Program-made: the position numbers and the translations under genes
Shown: positions 1-9,303 of the stretch, piece after piece
Layout of the letters: every line of letters starts with the position of its first letter
Position numbering within the stretch: position 1 is the stretch's first letter
Assembly (NCBI GenBank): GCA_005223085.1
Contig: NJBP01000069.1
Span: 1 to 9,303 of the forward strand
Origin: Candidatus Aerophobetes bacterium Ae_b3b
GTDB taxonomy: Bacteria; Aerophobota; Aerophobia; Aerophobales; AE-B3A
Length of the DNA: 9,303 nucleotides
Reading direction: 5' to 3'
The notes under the pieces: model-generated
Seen by the model: the letters and a program-made list of their open reading frames with translations, nothing else
The model's database searches: none
Told to the model about the DNA's origin: nothing

Positions 1-868
1 GTTCTCGCTCCACCACACTGAACCTACCACTATTTACCAGTTCGGTGACCAGCATATCTGAGATCCCCTCGCCAGGGTCCCAATCCCACCCCCACCAGCT
101 TTTTATCTGGCCTATCTTAAAGGGCATCACCGCGATGCGGATTCTGGCCGGAGTAACTGTAGGAGTTATGGTAACCTGCGGTGTTACCGTGGGTGTCACT
201 GGAGCAACGGCTAAACCAACCGTCTTCTCCTCAATTCCCTCGGCTAATTCTTTAACCGCGCCAGTGGTAGCCTTGCCGAGAATATGTTCCGCGAATCTTG
301 AGCTACCGAAAGTAAAACCAGATAGATCACCCCACCTTTCACTAAGGGCAACGTTACTCTGGCTCTTAGCCCCTTTCCCGGTTACAGCCGCCATGATCTC
401 TGAGGTCTCCACATTAACTAATCTTGCATTAAGGGCACATCTTGCCCGCCATTCATTAACTTCTCCCGCAACCGGAAGACGTATCTTTTTCGAGGTCAGG
501 CTAAATTCGGTAACCGTTCCAAAGACAAATAGTTGCACCCCCAGGATCCTTCCTATTCTAGCTGCCGTAGCTGCATTAACTACTCCTTCCCTGGCCAAAT
601 TCTGCTCCTGAAGTACCTCGTCCAGGCGTTCTCGCTCCACCACACTGAACCTACCACTATTTACCAGTTCGGTGACCAGCATATCTGAGATCCCCTCGCC
701 AGGGTCCCAATCCCACCCCCACCAGCTTTTTATCTGGCCTATCTTAAAGGGCATAACCGCGATGCGAATCTTTTGTGCGGCCACATCTTCTCGAGGGATA
801 AATAAACCGCCAGCCAGTAAAACCAGAAATAAACCGACTAGGATGAAACTTCTTTTCTTTCTCAACAT
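1..868 (-). CDS. CsgG-domain exported protein, 3' truncated by window edge (left copy)
   Basis: An open frame starts at ATG 868 on the - strand, behind a strong AAGGAGGA ribosome site, and runs off the window at position 1 (289 codons visible). The protein starts with a basic, hydrophobic signal peptide (about residues 1-31, cleavage plausible after VAA or AAQ) with no lipobox cysteine, unlike the E. coli CsgG lipoprotein. A CsgG-family domain follows (about 33-222), with IAVMPF at its start, a VVERERLDEVLQEQ stretch and GVQLFVFGTVTEF. After a Thr/Pro-rich linker (223-241) a second, nearly identical CsgG domain begins. It is sequence-identical to the copy at 8436-9303. CsgG is the curli secretion pore, but related folds serve other envelope roles, and no csgA, csgB, csgE or csgF is visible here. 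Function is unassigned. Confidence 0.8.
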   Translation of the reverse strand, partial: MLRKKRSFILVGLFLVLLAGGLFIPREDVAAQKIRIAVMPFKIGQIKSWWGWDWDPGEGISDMLVTELVNSGRFSVVERERLDEVLQEQNLAREGVVNAATAARIGRILGVQLFVFGTVTEFSLTSKKIRLPVAGEVNEWRARCALNARLVNVETSEIMAAVTGKGAKSQSNVALSERWGDLSGFTFGSSRFAEHILGKATTGAVKELAEGIEEKTVGLAVAPVTPTVTPQVTITPTVTPARIRIAVMPFKIGQIKSWWGWDWDPGEGISDMLVTELVNSGRFSVVERE

Positions 869-1243
869 CTAAATCCTCCTTTGAGTTTTAATCACAATGA
901 CACCTCTTGTTTCTTACCCTACAAATCACCTCCCTCTTTTTGATCCCACCTTCTCAAAAGTTATTCTTGATACATTGTGTTAGACTGCCAAAAAGGGGGA
1001 ATGTTCCCTAATAATTCAGAACTGAGAACTAAGAACTGAGAAAAAATCCACTAGCAAATCTTGATTTTTAATGCTTAGTTCTATTTACAATAACTTACCA
1101 CTCTCCAAAAACTCAGTACTTAAGAATTAATAAAAGCATTTTTGTAATTTTCGGTAAATCTCAGTTCTTAATTCTTAGTTCTCAGTTCTATCTGTATTAT
1201 AACTCTTAGTCCTTAATGCTTAATTCTTAATCCTATCTTTATC
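869..1243. other. Non-coding leader of the left CsgG gene, degenerate repeats
   Basis: No plausible gene is present. The stretch is full of degenerate units of the type GAACTGAGAACTAAGAA / TTAAGCATTAAGGACTAAG in both orientations, including a perfect 18-bp inverted pair at 1018-1035 and 1172-1189. The ribosome site of the CsgG gene lies at 875-881. It is identical to 8061-8435. Confidence 0.8.
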
Positions 1244-1319
1244 TGGTGGAGGCAGGGGGATTCGAACCCCCGACCTCGTCCACGCCAAGGACGCGCTCTC
1301 CCAGCTGAGCTATGCCCCC
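1244..1319 (-). tRNA. tRNA-Ala (anticodon GGC)
   Basis: Read on the - strand it forms a complete 76-nt cloverleaf. The acceptor GGGGGCA pairs with TGCCTCC (one G-T pair). The D arm is GCTC/GAGC, and the anticodon stem CGTCC/GGACG encloses loop TTGGCGT with GGC at 1286-1284. The T arm is GGGGG TTCGAAT CCCCC, and the discriminator A plus CCA are encoded. The 3' end touches the left inverted-repeat arm. It lies in the same orientation as rsfS, nadD and rny, about 390 bp downstream of rsfS. I did not find a convincing promoter of its own. Confidence 0.97.
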
Positions 1320-1378
1320 GTGAAATCTCTGGAAACCTTTAGTTACTTCGTAAGTATTCAGTGAACCCCGTCATTTTT

Positions 1379-1425
1379 GGTAGTCGCAAGGCTCAGAGCC
1401 TGCGCACCCTAAAGGGTGCGGCTAC
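1379..1425. repeat. REP-like branched palindrome
   Basis: The outer arms GGTAGTCGCA (1379-1388) and TGCGGCTACC (1416-1425) are complementary with one G-T pair. Inside lie two hairpins: AGGCTC-A-GAGCCT (1389-1401) and CGCACCC-TAAA-GGGTGCG (1403-1420), the second competing with the outer stem. The compact multi-hairpin form resembles the dispersed extragenic palindromes of many bacterial genomes; copy number cannot be judged from one window. Confidence 0.6.
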
Positions 1426-1503
1426 CCTGAAAATTCAATGTGACACGGTGTTTACTGAGCATTTACGTTACTTCTCTGCTAGCAATATCCTGTGACAAGA
1501 TAC

Positions 1504-1529
1504 TCGAGGGGGGAAATATCCCCCCTCGA
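1504..1529. repeat. Strong GC-rich hairpin
   Basis: TCGAGGGGGG (1504-1513) pairs perfectly with CCCCCCTCGA (1520-1529) across a six-base AAATAT turn. Neither side carries a T run directly after the stem, so it is a poor intrinsic terminator on its own. GAGGGG (1506-1511) could instead pair with CCCCTC (1583-1588), which is followed by TTTTTT (1589-1594). Confidence 0.6.
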
Positions 1530-1709
1530 CGGCTCGATCAGCAAAGCCGACTCTCGCTTCGCTCGAGCAAGTCGAGCCTGCTCCCCTCTTTTTTCTGATA
1601 TTTGGTCTACCGAGGGTTACTTGATAATAATTCAGAGAGATTATTGAAATTCCTATACCTTAAATTATCCTCAAGGTGAGGTGAAAAGAGAGTTTTTATC
1701 GGTTAGTGA

Positions 1710-2084
1710 TTACTGATCGCTGACTATCGTTTTCCCGGCATCGGCCCATAATCTTTCCAGTTGATAAAAGTCCCTCCCTGCTTGGGAAAAAATATGCACC
1801 ACTATTGAGCCAAAGTCAAGAAGAATCCAGCGATTGTTCATGAAATCCTTGGGATTGAGGAGTGTCACTCCTTGCTTGCTTAAGTTTTCCTCAAGCTCCT
1901 GAGCAATGCTACGCATGTGCAAAGAAGATTCCCCGCCGCAGATTATGAAATAATCTGTGATAGTAGAAATTTCCTTTAAGTTTAGAAGAACTATGTCTTT
2001 TGCTTTTTTATCCTCCACTATTTTGATGGCATCCTTTATCAATCTCTTGGGAATCAAATCCCTCTTCCTTCTACTAATTCGCAT
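1710..2084 (-). CDS. rsfS: Ribosomal silencing factor RsfS (Iojap/YbeB family)
   Basis: RsfS binds ribosomal protein uL14 on the 50S subunit and blocks subunit joining when nutrients are scarce. The 124-residue protein shows the family signatures TDYFIICGG (43-51), WILLDFGSIVVHIF (86-99) and FYQLERLWADA (106-116). Length is near the usual 105-130, with about 15 extra basic N-terminal residues. ATG 2084 is the first in-frame start, because an in-frame TGA lies six bases upstream. Its ribosome site is poor: the good GGGGAAGG is placed for ATG 2094, which opens only a two-codon frame. The gene sits 44 bp after nadD, the classic nadD-rsfS pairing. Its last codons and stop fall in a TGATTACT repeat-like sequence, so the C-terminal tail may be acquired. 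Identification is secure; the exact start less so. Confidence 0.95.
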   Translation of the reverse strand: MRISRRKRDLIPKRLIKDAIKIVEDKKAKDIVLLNLKEISTITDYFIICGGESSLHMRSIAQELEENLSKQGVTLLNPKDFMNNRWILLDFGSIVVHIFSQAGRDFYQLERLWADAGKTIVSDQ

Positions 2085-2085
2085 C

Positions 2086-2094
2086 TCAACTCAT
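2086..2094 (-). other. Two-codon mini-ORF with a good ribosome site just before rsfS
   Basis: On the - strand ATG AGT TGA (2094-2086) follows GGGGAAGG (2109-2102) at a 7-base spacing. It ends one base before the rsfS ATG. Ribosomes loading here would stop and could re-initiate at rsfS. This is an observation from spacing only; a regulatory role is inference. Confidence 0.35.
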
Positions 2095-2109
2095 GTTAGC
2101 GCCTTCCCC

Positions 2110-2123
2110 GTTGGTCAACCAAC
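2110..2123. other. Intercistronic hairpin between nadD and rsfS
   Basis: GTTGGT (2110-2115) and ACCAAC (2118-2123) form a perfect stem with a very tight turn. It lies in the 44-bp gap just upstream of the rsfS ribosome site on the transcript. No T run follows, so processing or translational tuning is more plausible than termination. Confidence 0.45.
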
Positions 2124-2128
2124 AGGAT

Positions 2129-2731
2129 CTATCGATAGAGGTTATTCTTATAAATATATTTTTCAACCACTTCTGGTACAAGATATTTGATAGTTTGTTC
2201 CTTCTTTATTCTTTCTCTGATTTGTGTTGAGGAAATAGCTAAAGCGGGAACTTCTACGAGGTAAGTACATTTTTGAAACCGGGGATCGATTTTTTTTATA
2301 TCTAACTTGTAACCCGGCCTAGAAACAGCAATAAATTTAGCTAGATGTGGCAAATCCTCTGTTTTATGCCAGGTAGAAATTTCCGCTATGGCATCAGCTC
2401 CAGTAATAAAAAAACATTCTGTACCTTCACCATACATCTGCCTCAATTGTAAGACAGTGTCCCGGGTATAAGATTCACCCCGCCGCTCTATCTCTATGGA
2501 AGAAACAGAGAAGTGTTCATTGCTGGCTGTAGCAAGAACCGTCATCATCCAGCGGTTTTCTGGTGAGGCAATTTCATTGTTCCCCTTATGGGGAGGTTTG
2601 CCCGAAGGGACAAACAATACCTCCTCCAATTTAAATTTATCCCAAATAAACTCTGCTGCCACTAGGTGTCCCTGATGAATGGGATTAAAAGTTCCTCCCA
2701 TAATTCCAAGTTTGAACGACGGTTTGCTCAT
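2129..2731 (-). CDS. nadD: Nicotinate-nucleotide adenylyltransferase NadD
   Basis: NadD joins nicotinate mononucleotide to the adenylyl group of ATP to make deamido-NAD, a late cytosolic step of NAD synthesis. The 200-residue protein has the nucleotidyltransferase fold signatures: GGTFNPIHQGH near the start, with the HxGH catalytic motif at H19-H22, FVPSGKPPHK for substrate binding, the FFITGADA stretch, and the C-terminal SSTxIR motif at 167-172. Length is typical of the family. ATG 2731 overlaps the rny stop by four bases (ATGA), so the two genes are translationally coupled. rsfS follows after 44 bp, the common bacterial order. All key residues that I can recognise are present. Confidence 0.97.
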   Translation of the reverse strand: MSKPSFKLGIMGGTFNPIHQGHLVAAEFIWDKFKLEEVLFVPSGKPPHKGNNEIASPENRWMMTVLATASNEHFSVSSIEIERRGESYTRDTVLQLRQMYGEGTECFFITGADAIAEISTWHKTEDLPHLAKFIAVSRPGYKLDIKKIDPRFQKCTYLVEVPALAISSTQIRERIKKEQTIKYLVPEVVEKYIYKNNLYR

Positions 2732-4269
2732 TTTGCATATTCAATAGAACGAAGCTCCCGAATTACCGTTATCTTAATCTGTCCGGGATAATTCAATTCT
2801 TTTTCAATTTTATTAGCGATCTCTCGACACAGTTCTGTAGCTCTTTCATCATTGATCTCCTGTGGCTGAACCATGATACGTAGTTCCCTGCCTGCTTGTA
2901 TAGCATAGGCTCTGTTTATTCCGGTAAAGGAACGGGCTATCTCCTCCAACTCTTCAATTCGCTTAAGATATGCCTCCAGAACTTCTTTTCTTGCTCCAGG
3001 TCTGGCCGCAGAAACAGCATCTGAAGCCTGAATCAAAATAGCCAGGGTGGTTTCAGTTTGTCTATCTTCATGATGAGCAGCAATGGCATGAACGATCTCT
3101 GGTGATTCTCCATATCGTTCAGCCAGACGGGCTCCAATTAAAGCATGTGAGCCTTCTATTTCCTGATCCACCGCTTTTCCAATATCATGAAGAAGACCTG
3201 CTCTTTTGGCCCGGATATAATCCACCTTCACTTCAGCTGCCATAATGCTAGCTATATAGGATACTTCTTTTGAGTGTTGCAATACATTTTGCCCATAACT
3301 GGTACGAAATTTCAGTCTTCCTAGAAGGTTGATTAGTTGGGTAGGTAGATCAGAGATTCCCATGTCGAAAGCTGCTCGCTGACCTTCTTCGTGAAGGATC
3401 TCCTCCATATCTTTTTTGGCTTTTTCCACTATCTCCTCGATTCTTGCTGGATGTATGCGAGTATCAGCGATGAGTCGCTCTAGACTAATTTCAGCTATTT
3501 TACGCCTTAAGGGATCGAAACAGGAGATAACCACTGTTTCTGGAGTGTCATCCACGATCAAATCCACACCGGTGAGAGCTTCAAATGTCCTTATGTTTCT
3601 ACCCTCTCTTCCGATAACTCTTCCTTTCATTTCATCATTGGGCAAGGAAAGGGTGGAGATTACTGTACCGACCACTTCATCCACTGCGCAACGTTGAATA
3701 GCTGTAGCTACAATCTTTCTCGCTTTTTTGTTAGCTGTTTCCTTGGCTTCTCTCTCCACTTTCTGGATAATCTGAGCTGCTTCTTCTTTAGCCTCTTCCT
3801 TTATAGTGTCTAAAAGAGTCCTTTTTGCCTCGGCCGTCGAAATACCAGCTATTTTTTCCAGCTCCTCCCTTTGCTTAATTTCCAGACCTCTTATTTTTTC
3901 TCTTTCCTTTTCTAATCTTTGTTCTTCTACTAAGATCTCCTTTTTTTTCCCTTCCATTTCCAGGAGACGACGATCTACAGTCTCCTCTCTTTCTGTTAAC
4001 CTTTTCGACAATTTATGAAGTTCATCACTTTTTTCTCTGGTTTCCTTCTCAAAACTAGCTCTTATTCGGTGAAGTTCCTCTTTTTTCTCAAGCTCAATTT
4101 CTCTTCTTCTATTCCTGACTTCCTCCTCTACCCGGGACAACTTAAACCGGGCTTTGTTCAATAAAGATCTTGCTCTTACTCTACTGAGAAGAGTAGTAAT
4201 TGCCCATCCCCCCAGTAGCCCTAAAATAATATATAGATAAATCTCATTGATGATATTAACTGGTATCAC
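2728..4269 (-). CDS. rny: Ribonuclease Y (membrane-anchored endoribonuclease)
   Basis: RNase Y starts mRNA decay at the inner face of the membrane. The 513-residue protein has the full family order: one N-terminal membrane helix (about 10-28), a long Glu/Lys/Arg-rich coiled coil (about 30-200), a KH RNA-binding domain with GRVIGREGRNIR (216-227), and an HD domain with the metal-binding pair H361-D362 in LLHDIGKA plus AIAAHHED downstream. Length matches the usual 510-520. The start is GTG 4269: an in-frame TGA lies six bases upstream, no ATG is nearby, and GAGGGGG sits about 9 bases ahead. The start lies in a 10-bp tandem duplication. A TTGACA promoter at 4314-4342 drives it. It leads an operon with nadD and rsfS. 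Confidence 0.97.
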   Translation of the reverse strand: MIPVNIINEIYLYIILGLLGGWAITTLLSRVRARSLLNKARFKLSRVEEEVRNRRREIELEKKEELHRIRASFEKETREKSDELHKLSKRLTEREETVDRRLLEMEGKKKEILVEEQRLEKEREKIRGLEIKQREELEKIAGISTAEAKRTLLDTIKEEAKEEAAQIIQKVEREAKETANKKARKIVATAIQRCAVDEVVGTVISTLSLPNDEMKGRVIGREGRNIRTFEALTGVDLIVDDTPETVVISCFDPLRRKIAEISLERLIADTRIHPARIEEIVEKAKKDMEEILHEEGQRAAFDMGISDLPTQLINLLGRLKFRTSYGQNVLQHSKEVSYIASIMAAEVKVDYIRAKRAGLLHDIGKAVDQEIEGSHALIGARLAERYGESPEIVHAIAAHHEDRQTETTLAILIQASDAVSAARPGARKEVLEAYLKRIEELEEIARSFTGINRAYAIQAGRELRIMVQPQEINDERATELCREIANKIEKELNYPGQIKITVIRELRSIEYAK

Positions 4270-4280
4270 CTGGTATCACC
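4261..4280. repeat. 10-bp tandem duplication across the rny start
   Basis: The ten bases tggtatcacc occur twice in a row. On the - strand this gives two copies of GTGATACCAG, so two GTG codons sit 10 bp apart in different frames behind the same GAGGGGG. Only the inner one (4269) opens rny; the outer one (4279) meets a stop after seven codons. Confidence 0.85.
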
Positions 4281-4313
4281 CCCTCTATTTTCAAAGATCA
4301 AAATTTCGCTATA

Positions 4314-4342
4314 AAAATACATAATTTTAAATGTTTTGTCAA
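4314..4342 (-). promoter_or_regulatory. Probable sigma-70-type promoter for rny-nadD-rsfS
   Basis: On the - strand a perfect TTGACA -35 (4342-4337) is followed by a 17-base spacer and TATTTT (4319-4314) as -10, matching the consensus at 4 of 6. It lies about 45 bp upstream of the rny GTG and faces away from the rightward promoter. Confidence 0.6.
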
Positions 4343-4351
4343 CCTTGGGTC

Positions 4352-4379
4352 TTGTCAAAGAATAGGGAATTGATATAAT
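4352..4379 (+). promoter_or_regulatory. Probable sigma-70-type promoter for the COG1313 gene
   Basis: TTGTCA (4352-4357) and a perfect TATAAT (4374-4379) are separated by 16 bases, with an extended -10 TG at 4371-4372. Transcription should start near 4386, leaving a leader of about 28 bases that contains a small hairpin (4388-4402). A 7-base TTGTCAA occurs both here and at 4336-4342, inside the opposing -35. Confidence 0.7.
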
Positions 4380-4387
4380 CAAGTCAT

Positions 4388-4402
4388 CTCTGACTCTCAG
4401 AG
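4388..4402 (+). promoter_or_regulatory. Leader hairpin overlapping the ribosome site of the COG1313 gene
   Basis: CTCTGA (4388-4393) pairs with TCAGAG (4397-4402) across CTC. The likely ribosome site AGAGG (4399-4403) for ATG 4414 lies in the 3' arm, so the fold could reduce initiation. The stem is short; a regulatory role is inferred. Confidence 0.35.
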
Positions 4403-4413
4403 GCCAGATAAAT

Positions 4414-5337
4414 ATGGACACCACTTTGGATACTCTTAATTATCGAAATCTTTACCAGAGTGGGGAATTAAGAAAAAGGATAAAAAAAGCTTATAAACTC
4501 TTGGAAAACTGTAGTCTCTGTCCCCGGAGATGTGGCGTAAATAGAAGAAGGGGAGAAACCGGATTTTGCAGATCCGGTGAGAAGTTAGAGGTCTCCAGCT
4601 TTCATTCTCACTTTGGCGAAGAGCCACCAATTTCTGGCTGTCGGGGCTCGGGAACTATCTTCCTGGCCCACTGTAATTTAAGATGTATCTTTTGTCAGAA
4701 TTATCCTATATCCCATCTGGGGAATGGAAACAAGATCTCAACCCAACAACTTTCTCAAATGATGCTCAGTTTGCAGAAAAAGAGATGCCATAATATAAAC
4801 CTGGTAACTCCTACTCATTTCATGCCTCAAATCCTGTCTGGTTTCCTACAAGCTGTCGAGAGAGACCTGGATATCCCTTTAGTTTATAATTGCAGTGGAT
4901 ACGAAAGCGTTGAGACTCTCAAGCTTCTGGAGGGGGTAGTTGATATTTACATGCCTGATCTAAAATATGGAACTAGAGAGGCAGGAGAAAAGTATTCCTC
5001 AGCTCCTGATTACTTTGAAATAGCAAAAAAAGCAATAAAAGAGATGTATCGGCAGGTAGGAGACCTAAGGCTTGATAAGAAAGGAGTTGCTCAGAGAGGT
5101 CTTCTAGTTAGACATCTTGTTCTACCCAATGGACAGGCGGGGACAAGAAAAGTTCTTGCTTTTTTAGCAGAAGAAATTTCCTCCCACACTTACATTAGCA
5201 TTATGAGCCAGTATTTTCCTGCTTATGAGGCGCAAGAATTCAAAGAGTTGAATAGGCGAATTACCCGCCAGGAATATCAACAAGTTCTGGACATGGCTGA
5301 ACAGTTAGGTCTAGAGACAGGATGGCGACAGAATTAA
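4414..5337 (+). CDS. Radical SAM protein, COG1313 (PflX / pyruvate formate-lyase activase-like)
   Basis: This 307-residue protein has the radical SAM cluster motif CxxxCxxC at C87, C91 and C94 (HCNLRCIFCQNY), which binds the 4Fe-4S cluster that cleaves S-adenosylmethionine. Ahead of it lie four more cysteines, C33, C36, C40 and C52, in CSLCPRRC and GFC, characteristic of this group and possibly a second metal site. LVTPTHFMPQI, VYNCSGYES, YMPDLKYG and RHLVLPN are strong family stretches. It resembles pyruvate formate-lyase activating enzymes, but the substrate of COG1313 proteins is not established, and no glycyl-radical enzyme is visible nearby. ATG 4414 follows a good promoter and a weak AGAGG site. 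It stands alone, about 105 bp before the likely start of the potassium transporter gene, on the same strand. Confidence 0.9.
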   Translation: MDTTLDTLNYRNLYQSGELRKRIKKAYKLLENCSLCPRRCGVNRRRGETGFCRSGEKLEVSSFHSHFGEEPPISGCRGSGTIFLAHCNLRCIFCQNYPISHLGNGNKISTQQLSQMMLSLQKKRCHNINLVTPTHFMPQILSGFLQAVERDLDIPLVYNCSGYESVETLKLLEGVVDIYMPDLKYGTREAGEKYSSAPDYFEIAKKAIKEMYRQVGDLRLDKKGVAQRGLLVRHLVLPNGQAGTRKVLAFLAEEISSHTYISIMSQYFPAYEAQEFKELNRRITRQEYQQVLDMAEQLGLETGWRQN

Positions 5338-5344
5338 TTAAACT

Positions 5345-5426
5345 AGTAATCAGTGGTCAGTATTCAGCGAAAATCTTGGGTGGTTGGTCAGTCACGCCTG
5401 ATTTTTGATCACGAAGCCTGATTACT
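5345..5426. repeat. Small inverted-repeat element before ktrB
   Basis: AGTAATCAG (5345-5353) and CTGATTACT (5418-5426) are exact reverse complements flanking 64 bp. Inside are short direct repeats, GGTCAGT and GCCTGATT, each twice. The 8-mer TGATTACT also occurs at the rsfS 3' end (1707-1714). No T run supports termination. It looks like a degenerate dispersed repeat, and its edge supplies the TGA (5419-5421) that bounds the ktrB frame upstream. Confidence 0.5.
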
Positions 5427-5442
5427 AAAAGAGGGAATCGTA

Positions 5443-5544
5443 ATTAACTATCCCAAAGTTACATCTCACCTGAATATCTTCATTACGGGGGTTGCTCTTA
5501 CAGCTATCCTCTCTCTTATCCTGGAGTACGGTTTTTATCTAGGA
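5443..5544 (+). other. Probable N-terminal extension of ktrB with a non-standard AUU start
   Basis: The ktrB frame stays open upstream of GTG 5545 to the TGA at 5419 and encodes a clear membrane helix (FITGVALTAILSLILEYGF). There is no ATG, GTG or TTG in this stretch. A good AGAGGGA (5430-5436) lies 6 bases before ATT 5443, an allowed rare start codon (as in infC). GTG 5545 has AGGA directly abutting it, too close to work. I infer that translation starts near 5443; a base error that hides a normal start is the alternative. Confidence 0.5.
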
Positions 5545-7182
5545 GTGAAAACCGAAGCTCTCCTCCATCGTCTGGATCTATTTATTGTAGGGATATTTCT
5601 TGCCGAATTTTTCTTTAAGTTAGCCTTAGCGAAAGAGAAGCGAGCTTATTTGATCGCTAATAAAGTTGATGGAGTAGTTATTGGCGTCTTTTTTGTCCTA
5701 ATTTTATTTATTAACAAGTTATTTACTGCGCCTGAATTGACTCAGTTTTTAGGAAGGATTGGCATTGTTTCTCCGGCCGAGGCCTATATAGTAATCTCTC
5801 AGGGGTATATTCTTGTGGCCTTACTTCTCAAACTACCTCAACTCAACAAAGCCCTTCTCATTCTGAAGCTAAATCCCTCCTTAGTAGTTATTTTGGCTTT
5901 TCTCACTATCATCGGTATAGGGACTATGCTGCTTCTTTTACCCCGCTCTACCGCATCAGGAAAAGAGACCACTTTCCTAGATGCTCTTTTTACTGCTACT
6001 TCGGCGACCTGTGTTACGGGACTCATTGTTGTCGATACGGGAACTCATTTTTCCTTGCTCGGACAACTAACCATCCTTTCATTAGTGCAAATAGGAGGTC
6101 TAGGATTGATGACTTTTACCTCTTTCTTTGCCCTAGTCCTAGGCAAAGGATTTGGACTCAAAGATAGGGGTCTGCTTCAAGATATACTCAATTACAGAAG
6201 GCTAGGTAGAATTGGATCTTTACTTTTATCAATTCTCACCATCACTTTCATTATAGAGGCAGCTGGGGCTCTTCTGTTGTATAGCCAATTCTTACCCAGA
6301 TATGGAGCAGGGGTGTCTGGTCTCTATTTTGCTATCTTTCATTCTGTTTCAGCCTTCTGTAACGCGGGATTTTCCCTTTTTTCGGATAGTTTTATGAGTT
6401 ATCGAGGGAATTTAGGAGTTAATCTTATTATGAGTAGTTTGATAATCCTAGGAGGATTGGGATTTATGGTAATAACTAATCTTCTACGCTGGGTATATGC
6501 GCGTCTTAAGGGGGAAAAGAGGTCTTTGTCTCTTCAGAGTAAGCTGGTACTTTTGGTCTCAGGCATATTAATTGCAACGGGGCTCAGTCTTATTCTTCTA
6601 GGAGGAACTATGGAGAATCTTTCCTTTAAAGAAAAAGTGCTGGGAGCCTATTTTCAATCAGTAACCGCAAGAACAGCCGGGTTTAATACCTTAAATATAA
6701 GTGGTTTGTCTGTATCTTCTGCTTTTTTGCTCATTGTCCTCATGTTTATAGGAGCCTCTCCTGGCTCCACTGGAGGAGGTGTTAAGACCAGCACTTTTGC
6801 TACACTAATTTTTACCATCAAATCTATGGCTCAGGGGAAAAACAGGGTGGAAGTTTTCCGCCGTACTATACCTCGCCTGATAGTTTATCAGGCCTTATGT
6901 GTTGTCATTCTAGCTCTGGGATGGATTGCCATTTCCACCTTCATCCTTGCTTTAACTGAAAACGCTTCCTTCATTAATATACTTTTTGAGGACCTTTCCG
7001 CCTTTGGCACGGTTGGTTTATCCAGAGGGTTGACCCCTAACCTGACCCCAGTGGGTAGAGTTGTCATCATCCTTACTATGCTGGTGGGAAGAATTGGTCC
7101 TCTAACCCTGGCATTAGCTATAGGGGGAAGAAGAATTAGTGAGCTTTATGAATACCCTGAAGAAAGAATAATGATAGGGTAG
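5545..7182 (+). CDS. ktrB: TrkH/KtrB-family potassium uptake channel subunit
   Basis: This is the integral membrane K+-conducting subunit. It carries the four selectivity-filter pore loops of the family: CVTG (156-159), NAGF (273-276), TAGF (377-380) and GTVG (488-491). The intramembrane gate loop SPGSTGGGVK starts at 405. These sit in the usual fourfold helix-pore-helix plan from about residue 110. Before that is an extra membrane region, longer than in KtrB proteins of about 450 residues, with F18-x2-E21-x3-K25 and N39-x2-D42, the pattern of voltage-sensor S2-S3 segments; its S4-like helix lacks an Arg ladder. Numbering is from GTG 5545, but the real start is probably upstream (see 5443-5544), giving about 579 residues. 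ktrA follows after 10 bp. Na+ or H+ coupling cannot be told from sequence alone. Confidence 0.93.
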   Translation: MKTEALLHRLDLFIVGIFLAEFFFKLALAKEKRAYLIANKVDGVVIGVFFVLILFINKLFTAPELTQFLGRIGIVSPAEAYIVISQGYILVALLLKLPQLNKALLILKLNPSLVVILAFLTIIGIGTMLLLLPRSTASGKETTFLDALFTATSATCVTGLIVVDTGTHFSLLGQLTILSLVQIGGLGLMTFTSFFALVLGKGFGLKDRGLLQDILNYRRLGRIGSLLLSILTITFIIEAAGALLLYSQFLPRYGAGVSGLYFAIFHSVSAFCNAGFSLFSDSFMSYRGNLGVNLIMSSLIILGGLGFMVITNLLRWVYARLKGEKRSLSLQSKLVLLVSGILIATGLSLILLGGTMENLSFKEKVLGAYFQSVTARTAGFNTLNISGLSVSSAFLLIVLMFIGASPGSTGGGVKTSTFATLIFTIKSMAQGKNRVEVFRRTIPRLIVYQALCVVILALGWIAISTFILALTENASFINILFEDLSAFGTVGLSRGLTPNLTPVGRVVIILTMLVGRIGPLTLALAIGGRRISELYEYPEERIMIG

Positions 7183-7192
7183 GAGGAAAAAA

Positions 7193-7876
7193 ATGCGCAA
7201 GTTTGCCGTCATCGGGCTAGGGCGATTTGGTGGAACGGTAGCCCAGAGTTTGGCTGAAAGAGGAGCTGAGGTAATCGCTGTTGATAAAGATGGTAAGTTG
7301 GTTGACAAATTTGCCGAAATTGTGGATCTAGCCGTTAGGTTGGATTCTACAGATGAGGAAGCTTTGAAATCTCAAGGGATAAATCAGGTAGATGTGGCCA
7401 TCGTGAGTATAGGAGATTTTGAGGATTCTGTTCTTACTACTGCTCTTCTTAAGCGACTAGGTGTTCCAATGGTCATTACTCGGGCCTCCCAGACCGCATC
7501 AGATATTCAAGATCGAATACTGAGTCTTGTAGGAGCGGATAGGGTAGTTTTACCTGAGATGGAGATGGGTAAGAGATTAGCCAGGAATCTTTTGGTTTCC
7601 AGTGTCCTCGATTACGTCCCAATTTCTGATAAGTACAGCGCAGCAGAGATCCGGTGTCCTAAGTCGTTCTGGGGTAAAAGGATAGCTGATCTTAAGATCC
7701 GACAGAAATACAAAGTAAACATTTTAGAGATGAAGAAAGTATCCGGGGAGGGGGAGGACGAGCGGGTGGAGAGAATAAACTATCTTCCTCAGTCTGATGA
7801 CGTTATCGAAAAGGGAGATATTTTGCTGGTGATAGGCGAAGAAGAAGATATTGAGCGTCTCTCAAAGGAAGAGTAA
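7193..7876 (+). CDS. ktrA: KtrA/TrkA-type RCK regulatory subunit of the K+ uptake system
   Basis: This cytosolic protein forms the ring that gates the KtrB channel in response to nucleotides. The 227 residues contain an RCK_N Rossmann domain (about 3-120) with GLGRFGG (8-14) and an acidic D31 at the end of the second strand (VIAVD), the usual contact to the adenine ribose of NAD or ATP. A C-terminal RCK_C domain (about 138-225) ends in GDILLVIGEEEDIERL. One RCK unit and this length match KtrA rather than the two-unit TrkA of E. coli. ATG 7193 follows AGGAGG (7181-7186), which overlaps the ktrB stop, so the subunits are translated together. A strong hairpin follows at 7893-7932. Confidence 0.95.
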   Translation: MRKFAVIGLGRFGGTVAQSLAERGAEVIAVDKDGKLVDKFAEIVDLAVRLDSTDEEALKSQGINQVDVAIVSIGDFEDSVLTTALLKRLGVPMVITRASQTASDIQDRILSLVGADRVVLPEMEMGKRLARNLLVSSVLDYVPISDKYSAAEIRCPKSFWGKRIADLKIRQKYKVNILEMKKVSGEGEDERVERINYLPQSDDVIEKGDILLVIGEEEDIERLSKEE

Positions 7877-7892
7877 TGATTGGCAACTATTT

Positions 7893-7932
7893 ACCCCGTT
7901 AGAAAAGGCCCATCCGAATTTTCTAACGGGGT
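7893..7932 (+). terminator. Hairpin terminator after ktrA (possibly also a dispersed palindrome)
   Basis: ACCCCGTTAGAAAA (7893-7906) and TTTTCTAACGGGGT (7919-7932) form a perfect 14-bp stem with a 12-base loop, 17 bp after the ktrA stop. The tail (TTACATTCTTTG) is only moderately T-rich, so termination may be partial. The long perfect arms could equally belong to a dispersed intergenic palindrome family. Confidence 0.65.
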
Positions 7933-7959
7933 TTACATTCTTTGAGAGTTTGCTATGCT
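7932..7959 (+). promoter_or_regulatory. Probable promoter of tRNA-Leu
   Basis: TTTACA (7932-7937; 5 of 6 to the -35 consensus), a 16-base spacer and TATGCT (7954-7959) with an extended -10 TG at 7951-7952 put the start near 7966, just before the tRNA at 7973. The -35 shares its first base with the last base of the ktrA hairpin. Confidence 0.5.
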
Positions 7960-7972
7960 TCAGGCGTAGTAA

Positions 7973-8060
7973 GCCGGGATGGCGGAAGTGGTAGACGCGC
8001 ATGGTTGAGGGCCATGTGGACGTTTTGTCCATGGGGGTTCAAATCCCCCTCCCGGCACCA
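7973..8060 (+). tRNA. tRNA-Leu (anticodon GAG)
   Basis: This is a complete 88-nt class II tRNA. The acceptor GCCGGGA pairs with TCCCGGC. The anticodon stem CATGG/CCATG encloses loop TTGAGGG with GAG at 8007-8009. The long variable arm GGAC-GTTTT-GTCC (8018-8030) is typical of tRNA-Leu. The T arm is GGGGG TTCAAAT CCCCC, followed by discriminator A and encoded CCA. The last five bases form the start of the right inverted-repeat arm. Its T arm differs from that of tRNA-Ala by one loop base. Confidence 0.97.
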
Positions 8061-8114
8061 GATAAAGATAGGATTAAGAATTAAGCATTAAGGACTAAGA
8101 GTTATAATACAGAT

Positions 8115-8286
8115 AGAACTGAGAACTAAGAATTAAGAACTGAGATTTACCGAAAATTACAAAAATGCTTTTATTAATTCTTAAGTACTGAGTTTTTGGA
8201 GAGTGGTAAGTTATTGTAAATAGAACTAAGCATTAAAAATCAAGATTTGCTAGTGGATTTTTTCTCAGTTCTTAGTTCTCAGTTCT
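8115..8286. repeat. Long-range inverted repeat in the leader (MITE- or REP-like)
   Basis: An 18-base arm at 8115-8132 is the exact reverse complement of 8269-8286, 136 bp apart. Related imperfect copies lie at about 8075-8098 and 8222-8235. The same pair is mirrored at 1018-1189. It resembles a dispersed intergenic palindromic repeat; it encodes no transposase and I see no obvious target-site duplication. Confidence 0.6.
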
Positions 8287-8295
8287 GAATTATTA

Positions 8296-8314
8296 GGGAA
8301 CATTCCCCCTTTTT
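8296..8314 (+). terminator. Weak hairpin with T run, possible terminator after tRNA-Leu
   Basis: GGGAA (8296-8300) pairs with TTCCC (8303-8307) over a 2-base turn. Two more Cs and five Ts (8310-8314) follow. The stem is short, so this is only a candidate for ending transcripts from the tRNA-Leu promoter. The mirror is at 990-1008. Confidence 0.3.
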
Positions 8315-8435
8315 GGCAGTCTAACACAATGTATCAAGAATAACTTTTGAGAAGGTGGGATCAAAAAGAGGGAGGTGATTTGTAGGGTAAGAAACAAGAG
8401 GTGTCATTGTGATTAAAACTCAAAGGAGGATTTAG

Positions 8436-9303
8436 ATGTTGAGAAAGAAAAGAAGTTTCATCCTAGTCGGTTTATTTCTGGTTTTACTGGCTGGCGGTTT
8501 ATTTATCCCTCGAGAAGATGTGGCCGCACAAAAGATTCGCATCGCGGTTATGCCCTTTAAGATAGGCCAGATAAAAAGCTGGTGGGGGTGGGATTGGGAC
8601 CCTGGCGAGGGGATCTCAGATATGCTGGTCACCGAACTGGTAAATAGTGGTAGGTTCAGTGTGGTGGAGCGAGAACGCCTGGACGAGGTACTTCAGGAGC
8701 AGAATTTGGCCAGGGAAGGAGTAGTTAATGCAGCTACGGCAGCTAGAATAGGAAGGATCCTGGGGGTGCAACTATTTGTCTTTGGAACGGTTACCGAATT
8801 TAGCCTGACCTCGAAAAAGATACGTCTTCCGGTTGCGGGAGAAGTTAATGAATGGCGGGCAAGATGTGCCCTTAATGCAAGATTAGTTAATGTGGAGACC
8901 TCAGAGATCATGGCGGCTGTAACCGGGAAAGGGGCTAAGAGCCAGAGTAACGTTGCCCTTAGTGAAAGGTGGGGTGATCTATCTGGTTTTACTTTCGGTA
9001 GCTCAAGATTCGCGGAACATATTCTCGGCAAGGCTACCACTGGCGCGGTTAAAGAATTAGCCGAGGGAATTGAGGAGAAGACGGTTGGTTTAGCCGTTGC
9101 TCCAGTGACACCCACGGTAACACCGCAGGTTACCATAACTCCTACAGTTACTCCGGCCAGAATCCGCATCGCGGTGATGCCCTTTAAGATAGGCCAGATA
9201 AAAAGCTGGTGGGGGTGGGATTGGGACCCTGGCGAGGGGATCTCAGATATGCTGGTCACCGAACTGGTAAATAGTGGTAGGTTCAGTGTGGTGGAGCGAG
9301 AAC
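8436..9303 (+). CDS. CsgG-domain exported protein, 3' truncated by window edge (right copy)
   Basis: ATG 8436 lies 6 bases after AAGGAGG (8423-8429), and the frame stays open to the last base. Residues 1-31 form a signal peptide (MLRKKR, then a long hydrophobic core, ending near VAAQ) without a lipoprotein cysteine. Residues 33-222 are a CsgG-family domain: IAVMPF, a GEGISDMLVTELV helix, VVERERLDEVLQEQ, an ATAARIGRILGV helix and FGTVTEF. Residues 223-241 are a Thr/Pro linker (TPTVTP-type). From residue 242 a second domain repeats the first with a 209-residue period and continues beyond the window. The gene follows tRNA-Leu by 375 bp in the same orientation. The CsgG fold assignment is from recognised family motifs; the partner, substrate and full length are unknown. 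Confidence 0.82.
   Translation, partial: MLRKKRSFILVGLFLVLLAGGLFIPREDVAAQKIRIAVMPFKIGQIKSWWGWDWDPGEGISDMLVTELVNSGRFSVVERERLDEVLQEQNLAREGVVNAATAARIGRILGVQLFVFGTVTEFSLTSKKIRLPVAGEVNEWRARCALNARLVNVETSEIMAAVTGKGAKSQSNVALSERWGDLSGFTFGSSRFAEHILGKATTGAVKELAEGIEEKTVGLAVAPVTPTVTPQVTITPTVTPARIRIAVMPFKIGQIKSWWGWDWDPGEGISDMLVTELVNSGRFSVVERE
8550..8676 (+). repeat. 127-bp direct repeat, copy 1 (in CsgG domain 1, right arm)
   Basis: This stretch is identical to 9177-9303, offset 627 bp (209 codons, in frame). Just upstream the copies differ (t8549 versus g9176, plus three further differences back to 8532), so domain 2 is a genuine diverging copy rather than an echo of domain 1. The mirror copy on the left arm is 628-754. 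Confidence 0.97.
9177..9303 (+). repeat. 127-bp direct repeat, copy 2 (in CsgG domain 2, ends the window)
   Basis: It is identical to 8550-8676, and the window ends exactly when the shared run reaches 127 bp. The mirror copy is 1-127 at the left edge. An end defined by a 127-mer that already occurs in the contig is what a de Bruijn assembly with k=127 would produce. Confidence 0.95.

Follow-up and report, generated by a model that had tools for sequence, protein, structure and literature searches.

The stretch of DNA analysed here (the window, 9,303 nt) is one entire contig, C73 of 86, from a Candidatus Aerophobota genome bin (G000; 2.04 Mb, 88.6% complete), and it is framed by an inverted repeat. 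Positions 1-1248 are the reverse complement of positions 8056-9303 with zero mismatches, so that on recomparison the perfect repeat described in an earlier reading of the letters alone (the sequence-only reading) proved exact. In what follows, R denotes the segment forming the two arms and M the 6.8 kb block between them (1244-8060). The boundaries between arm and unique sequence sit within the CACCA ends of two oppositely facing tRNA genes, tRNA-Ala(GGC) (1244-1319, minus strand) and tRNA-Leu(GAG) (7973-8060, plus strand); both were located with ARAGORN, whose coordinates agree with the boundary proposed earlier, and both match Rfam RF00005. Between the tRNA genes lie rsfS, encoding the ribosomal silencing factor (1710-2084, PF02410), nadD, encoding nicotinate-nucleotide adenylyltransferase (2129-2731, PF01467), and rny, encoding RNase Y (2728-4269, PF12072 with KH and HD domains), all on the minus strand, followed on the plus strand by a gene for a radical SAM protein (4414-5337, PF04055), trkH (5545-7182, PF02386) and trkA (7193-7876, PF02254 and PF02080). 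The best matches of the TrkA protein are in metagenome-assembled genomes, most of them named Candidatus Aerophobetes.

The right arm (8056-9303, plus strand) carries a csgG-like gene (8436-9302, plus strand) that is open at the contig end and matches PF03783 over two stretches, comprising one complete CsgG domain and the start of a second, near-identical one. This tandem duplication has a period of 627 nt and is near-identical across 142 nt. Within the gene, a 127-nt sequence is present twice on the plus strand, at 8550-8676 and, exactly at the contig end, at 9177-9303 (a spacing of 627 nt), and is mirrored in the left arm at 1-127 and 628-754; C73 thus both begins and ends exactly on it. On another contig of the bin, C82, a later CsgG domain (C82:349-912) has its start interrupted by some 350 nt similar to a stretch of contig C41.

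The 127-nt sequence reveals how the arms came to be in the contig. The terminal 127-mer recurs elsewhere at 47 of the 169 contig ends tested in the bin, whereas a 128-mer is shared by none of them, save for C73 with itself; because of this exact limit, the assembly is the product of a k=127 de Bruijn graph with path walking, SPAdes-like, although the name of the assembler is inferred. In a de Bruijn graph, an identical stretch longer than k collapses to one edge or a chain of edges. Both arms are accordingly a single graph segment that the assembler walked twice, the copy at 9177-9303 being an assembly node and the left arm (1-1248, minus strand) the second traversal of a segment that belongs downstream of tRNA-Leu and here stands in an anomalous position. 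It follows that the 1248-nt arm length and the perfect identity were made by the graph, and that neither is informative on age or true extent. The sequence-only reading had taken perfect identity to favour a chimera or the coexistence of two orientations; this argument falls, since any segment walked twice by a graph assembler is identical to itself. As such, the 1.25 kb inverted repeat is probably absent from the chromosome, and it should not be annotated as part of it.

What the graph does retain is the join between tRNA-Ala and R. The left arm lacks tRNA-Leu and starts at the point of divergence between the tRNA-Ala and tRNA-Leu contexts. A contig can only follow complete edges, so the tRNA-Ala/R junction itself must have been in the k=127 graph, and should hence have been present in reads or, less likely, in contigs built at smaller k. 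The earlier claim that reads must contain the junction therefore holds, by way of this whole-edge argument and not the one originally made from a 5-bp overlap.

Gene order in the bin and in related genomes distinguishes between the two junctions. In relatives outside a sister genus (g4), and as far as their contigs reach, the order is hisC-ilvD-tRNA-Ala-[rsfS nadD rny rSAM trkH trkA]-tRNA-Leu-(csgG)-queH-proB-era, where rSAM is the radical SAM gene; the run from hisC to tRNA-Leu is found in G002, G003, G009 and G011, and partially in G001, G006, G010, G012, G014 and G016. Downstream of tRNA-Leu, queH and/or proB are found in G003, G006, G010 and G011, the last of which also carries era, and G009 has a csgG homologue there. 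Within the bin itself, contig C74 bears tRNA-Ala followed by ilvD-hisC-cmk-plsC-ispH-rpsA, and C82 carries the 3' part of a csgG-like gene, an outer-membrane-beta-barrel-like gene, a nitroreductase-like gene, queH, proB and era (some of these names were assigned by reading the sequence). The neighbours that the sequence-only reading had singled out as worth comparing are thus ilvD downstream of tRNA-Ala and csgG, queH or proB downstream of tRNA-Leu. On C74, and in every relative showing that side, tRNA-Ala is followed by ilvD and not by R; csgG beside tRNA-Ala was seen in no relative examined. The same-genus genome G001 does not contain the tRNA-Leu(GAG) stretch, and is uninformative on the downstream neighbour of this tRNA in the genus. 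Because C74, C82 and the relatives carry the native neighbours, the right arm is native, matching the csgG homologue of G009 and continuing onto C82, with only the junction between tRNA-Ala and the left arm anomalous. Insertion of a mobile element at the 3' ends of two tRNAs was also considered and ruled out, as the arm is the native neighbourhood of tRNA-Leu (csgG, then queH-proB-era on C82) and contains no integrase.

The anomalous junction lies in sequence that the two tRNA flanks share. Within the window, they have 5 nt in common, as had been noted; the homology usable for an exchange is nevertheless larger, because the native tRNA-Ala 3' flank on C74 begins with CACCAGATAAAGATAGGATTAAG, 23 nt identical to the start of R, followed by a 7-nt shift, and the longest exact match between the tRNA-Ala flank of C74 and the tRNA-Leu flank, again with a 7-nt shift, spans 40 nt. 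A junction resting on 5 bp only is thereby replaced by one with 23/40 nt of homology. The 23-mer has three copies in the bin, at the anomalous junction (1226-1248, minus strand), at the start of the right arm (8056-8078, plus strand) and at C74:403-425, where about 60 nt of tRNA-Leu-type flank adjoin tRNA-Ala. Given the inverted orientation of this homology, the two tRNA flanks constitute inverted repeats around M. The tRNA-Ala flank of G001 differs from that of G000, although both belong to the same genus; gain in G000 and loss in G001 are both possible.

Both 3' flanks are degenerate heptamer tracts of AATTAAG type (window 8061-8145 and C74:408-449), with lag-7 match values of 0.57 and 0.66, respectively, against a level of 0.5 that about 1% of the intergenic windows of the bin reach. 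Such flanks are not a general feature of tRNA genes in this genome: by eye, only 2 of the 20 tRNAs in the sampled stretches have them, namely Ala(GGC) and Leu(GAG). NTCGTNN-type heptamer tracts lie directly 3' of the CCA of the same tRNAs in G002, G003 and G006, where they also make up much of the spacer. A literature search on heptamers adjoining tRNAs found only unrelated work.

The region around tRNA-Ala also varies within the bin. Alignment of C73 with C74 shows that, between tRNA-Ala and rsfS, C73 carries a 117-bp insertion (1350-1466) resembling a miniature inverted-repeat transposable element (MITE), with imperfect terminal inverted repeats and an 8-bp target duplication (GTTACTTC, at 1342-1349 and 1467-1474), for which C74 represents the empty site. 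The element has about a dozen copies in the bin at 94-99% identity, which suggests that it was recently active. Next to it is a dispersed repeat of about 170 bp (1496-1663; C74:112-280), with many copies in the bin and in the same-genus genome. The longest exact stretch common to C73 and C74 around tRNA-Ala is 124 nt, shorter than k. Elsewhere, end-to-end overlaps at 94-96% identity link three contig pairs (C59/C46, C29/C55 and C36/C70); synteny with G001 gave no matches to confirm the C59/C46 overlap. On the strength of these dovetail overlaps and of the filled and empty MITE alleles, the bin is best read as a metagenomic strain mixture in which C73 and C74 are two haplotypes of the locus, although they may possibly be two tRNA-Ala loci within one genome.

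An inversion of M in part of the sampled population or in one strain is what we favour, at close to an even chance, as it accounts for the right arm being native, for the odd join on the left and for the inverted homology of the flanks, and has a precedent in genus g4; the confidence expressed here and below in each of four readings is a matter of judgement and was not computed. By this account, tRNA-Leu/R would be the ancestral junction, and the tRNA-Ala/R junction would have arisen when the two tRNA genes, which face opposite ways, exchanged sequence through their near-identical 3' flanks, flipping M in part of the population or in one strain. Both ends of M would then be joined to R in the sequenced DNA, and a k=127 assembler would walk R twice. 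We infer that cells contain the extra junction, and that it stems from an inversion rather than a duplication. The tRNA genes on either side of M do point in opposite directions and share inverted sequence, and relatives carry an M-containing segment in the opposite orientation. G004 of genus g4 has the order era-queH-ilvD-tRNA-Ala-rsfS-nadD-rny-(another trk pair)-tRNA-Leu-hisC, G007 and G008 have tRNA-Leu followed by hisC-cmk-plsC-ispH-rpsA, and in all three the other trk pair lies beside tRNA-Leu, with hisC onward next (G004:C111, G007:C127, G008:C209). Relative to its neighbours, the ilvD-tRNA-Ala-M-tRNA-Leu segment is thus, by gene order, inverted and fixed in this sister genus (three species).

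Several observations weigh against the inversion. The g4 breakpoints are at tRNA-Leu and at hisC/ilvD, and ilvD stays with tRNA-Ala in G004, so that the breakpoint on the ilvD side differs and the g4 inversion is related to, and not identical with, the event proposed for C73. The walk enters R at both ends of M, whereas a strain in which the two orientations were both common should also offer a path from M into the ilvD side. A search of the bin for the reciprocal junction, which would join tRNA-Leu to the ilvD-side flank, came up empty; the objection is a weak one, given that contigs below about 5 kb are missing from the bin (the smallest one seen has 5144 nt).

As regards a recombinase that could act on the flanks, PF00589 has seven matches in the bin, all of them outside the window. 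None of the seven window proteins matches a recombinase family, and M accordingly has no adjacent invertase of the kind that accompanies a phase-variable element. An integrase fragment on contig C61 (C61:1860-2045) lies just upstream of a tRNA-Lys/Glu/Val cluster (tRNAs at 2101-2325).

Next in standing, and on the whole unlikely, is a fold-back chimera made in vitro during whole-genome amplification or library PCR, in which a 3' end freed at the tRNA-Ala flank would re-anneal 6.8 kb away, on the opposite strand, to the tRNA-Leu flank and copy R, the resulting join being retained in assembly. An inverted join across less than 10 kb (6.8 kb) with homology at the join fits the mechanism of chimera formation in multiple displacement amplification (MDA), and the absent reciprocal junction matches a one-sided event. 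MDA chimeras, however, are reported at about one per 22 kb, 85% of them being inverted, mostly between sites less than 10 kb apart, with complementary stretches of at most 21 nt (Lasken and Stockwell 2007, PMC1855051), whereas C73 is the only fold-back contig among the 86 sampled at their ends (usually the first 12 kb and the last 8 kb). The sole other same-contig inverted match of at least 60 nt in these ends is a 124-nt palindrome of 92% identity with which contig C76 begins (C76:1-123). The lack of a second fold-back contig in the sampled ends speaks against pervasive MDA artefacts and against amplified DNA, although not decisively, as assemblers remove many chimeras. The bin, moreover, looks like a strain mixture and hence a metagenome, and the homology at the join is a real shared sequence of 23/40 nt instead of a random short match. 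Of the three options raised by the sequence-only reading, which preferred two orientations and a template-switch chimera to an inverted duplication, two orientations is best supported, M being a conserved native block with a native right arm and a single anomalous junction, and a sister genus having a fixed inversion of a segment around it; the chimera falls behind for want of any other fold-back among the 86 contigs.

A true inverted duplication is more doubtful still. In one strain, replication template switching at the CACCA/flank homology would have set a second copy of R, of 1.25 kb or more, next to tRNA-Ala; on C73, M does lead solely into R at either end, as this predicts, and the roughly 60 nt of tRNA-Leu-type flank beside tRNA-Ala on the independent contig C74 imply that sequence once moved between the flanks in this lineage. 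Yet the arm stops precisely at an assembly node, so that no biological end of the copy is visible; the 127-nt node terminates both arms, no contig continues either of them under another flank, and in none of the relatives examined does csgG adjoin tRNA-Ala. Least credible, and very improbable, is a mere assembly error that merged strain variants, so that no real molecule carries the junction. Small values of k could be misled by strain differences at the locus together with the low-complexity sequence that the flanks share, but the whole-edge walk should require the tRNA-Ala/R junction in the k=127 graph, and the exact matches, of 23 and 40 nt between the flanks and 124 nt between C73 and C74, all fall short of 127.

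Returning to the inversion, a wider and frankly speculative extension is that the heptamer flanks of tRNA-Ala(GGC) and tRNA-Leu(GAG) might form a recurrent inversion hot spot in Aerophobota, exchanging sequence and flipping the rsfS-trkA block, now in G000 and earlier in the ancestor of g4. The feature is otherwise largely ordinary, a graph palindrome pointing to a small tRNA-bounded rearrangement. A perfect palindrome in a metagenome contig can evidently be decoded without reads, as graph overlap at contig ends, native neighbours on other contigs and the gene order of relatives together single out the odd junction. Should the inversion prove real, the locus would be a small structural variant bounded by tRNA genes, found in an uncultured phylum and paralleled by a related inversion that has become fixed in a sister genus.

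Among known systems, phase-variable invertible regions appear as mixed orientations in metagenomes. M resembles them in being a segment with flanking inverted repeats, both orientations of which possibly occur in one population; it differs in that the window holds no invertase, housekeeping genes and two tRNAs lie inside, and the repeats are degenerate heptamer tracts. With MDA fold-back chimeras, C73 shares an inverted join within 10 kb at sequence complementarity, although the bin contains one event and no apparent sign of amplification, and the 23-nt homology is just above the reported range. In Thermococcales, chromosomal inversions have breakpoints at pairs of oppositely oriented tRNA genes (Cossu et al. 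2017, PMC5495485). There too the inversion is bounded by two different, oppositely facing tRNA genes, and lineages of one genus differ in it; the segments, however, measure roughly 74-143 kb as opposed to 6.8 kb, the breakpoints are within the tRNA genes whereas most of the block shared here lies beyond the CCA, and a tRNA-targeting integrase has been implicated, while no recombinase is encoded in the window.

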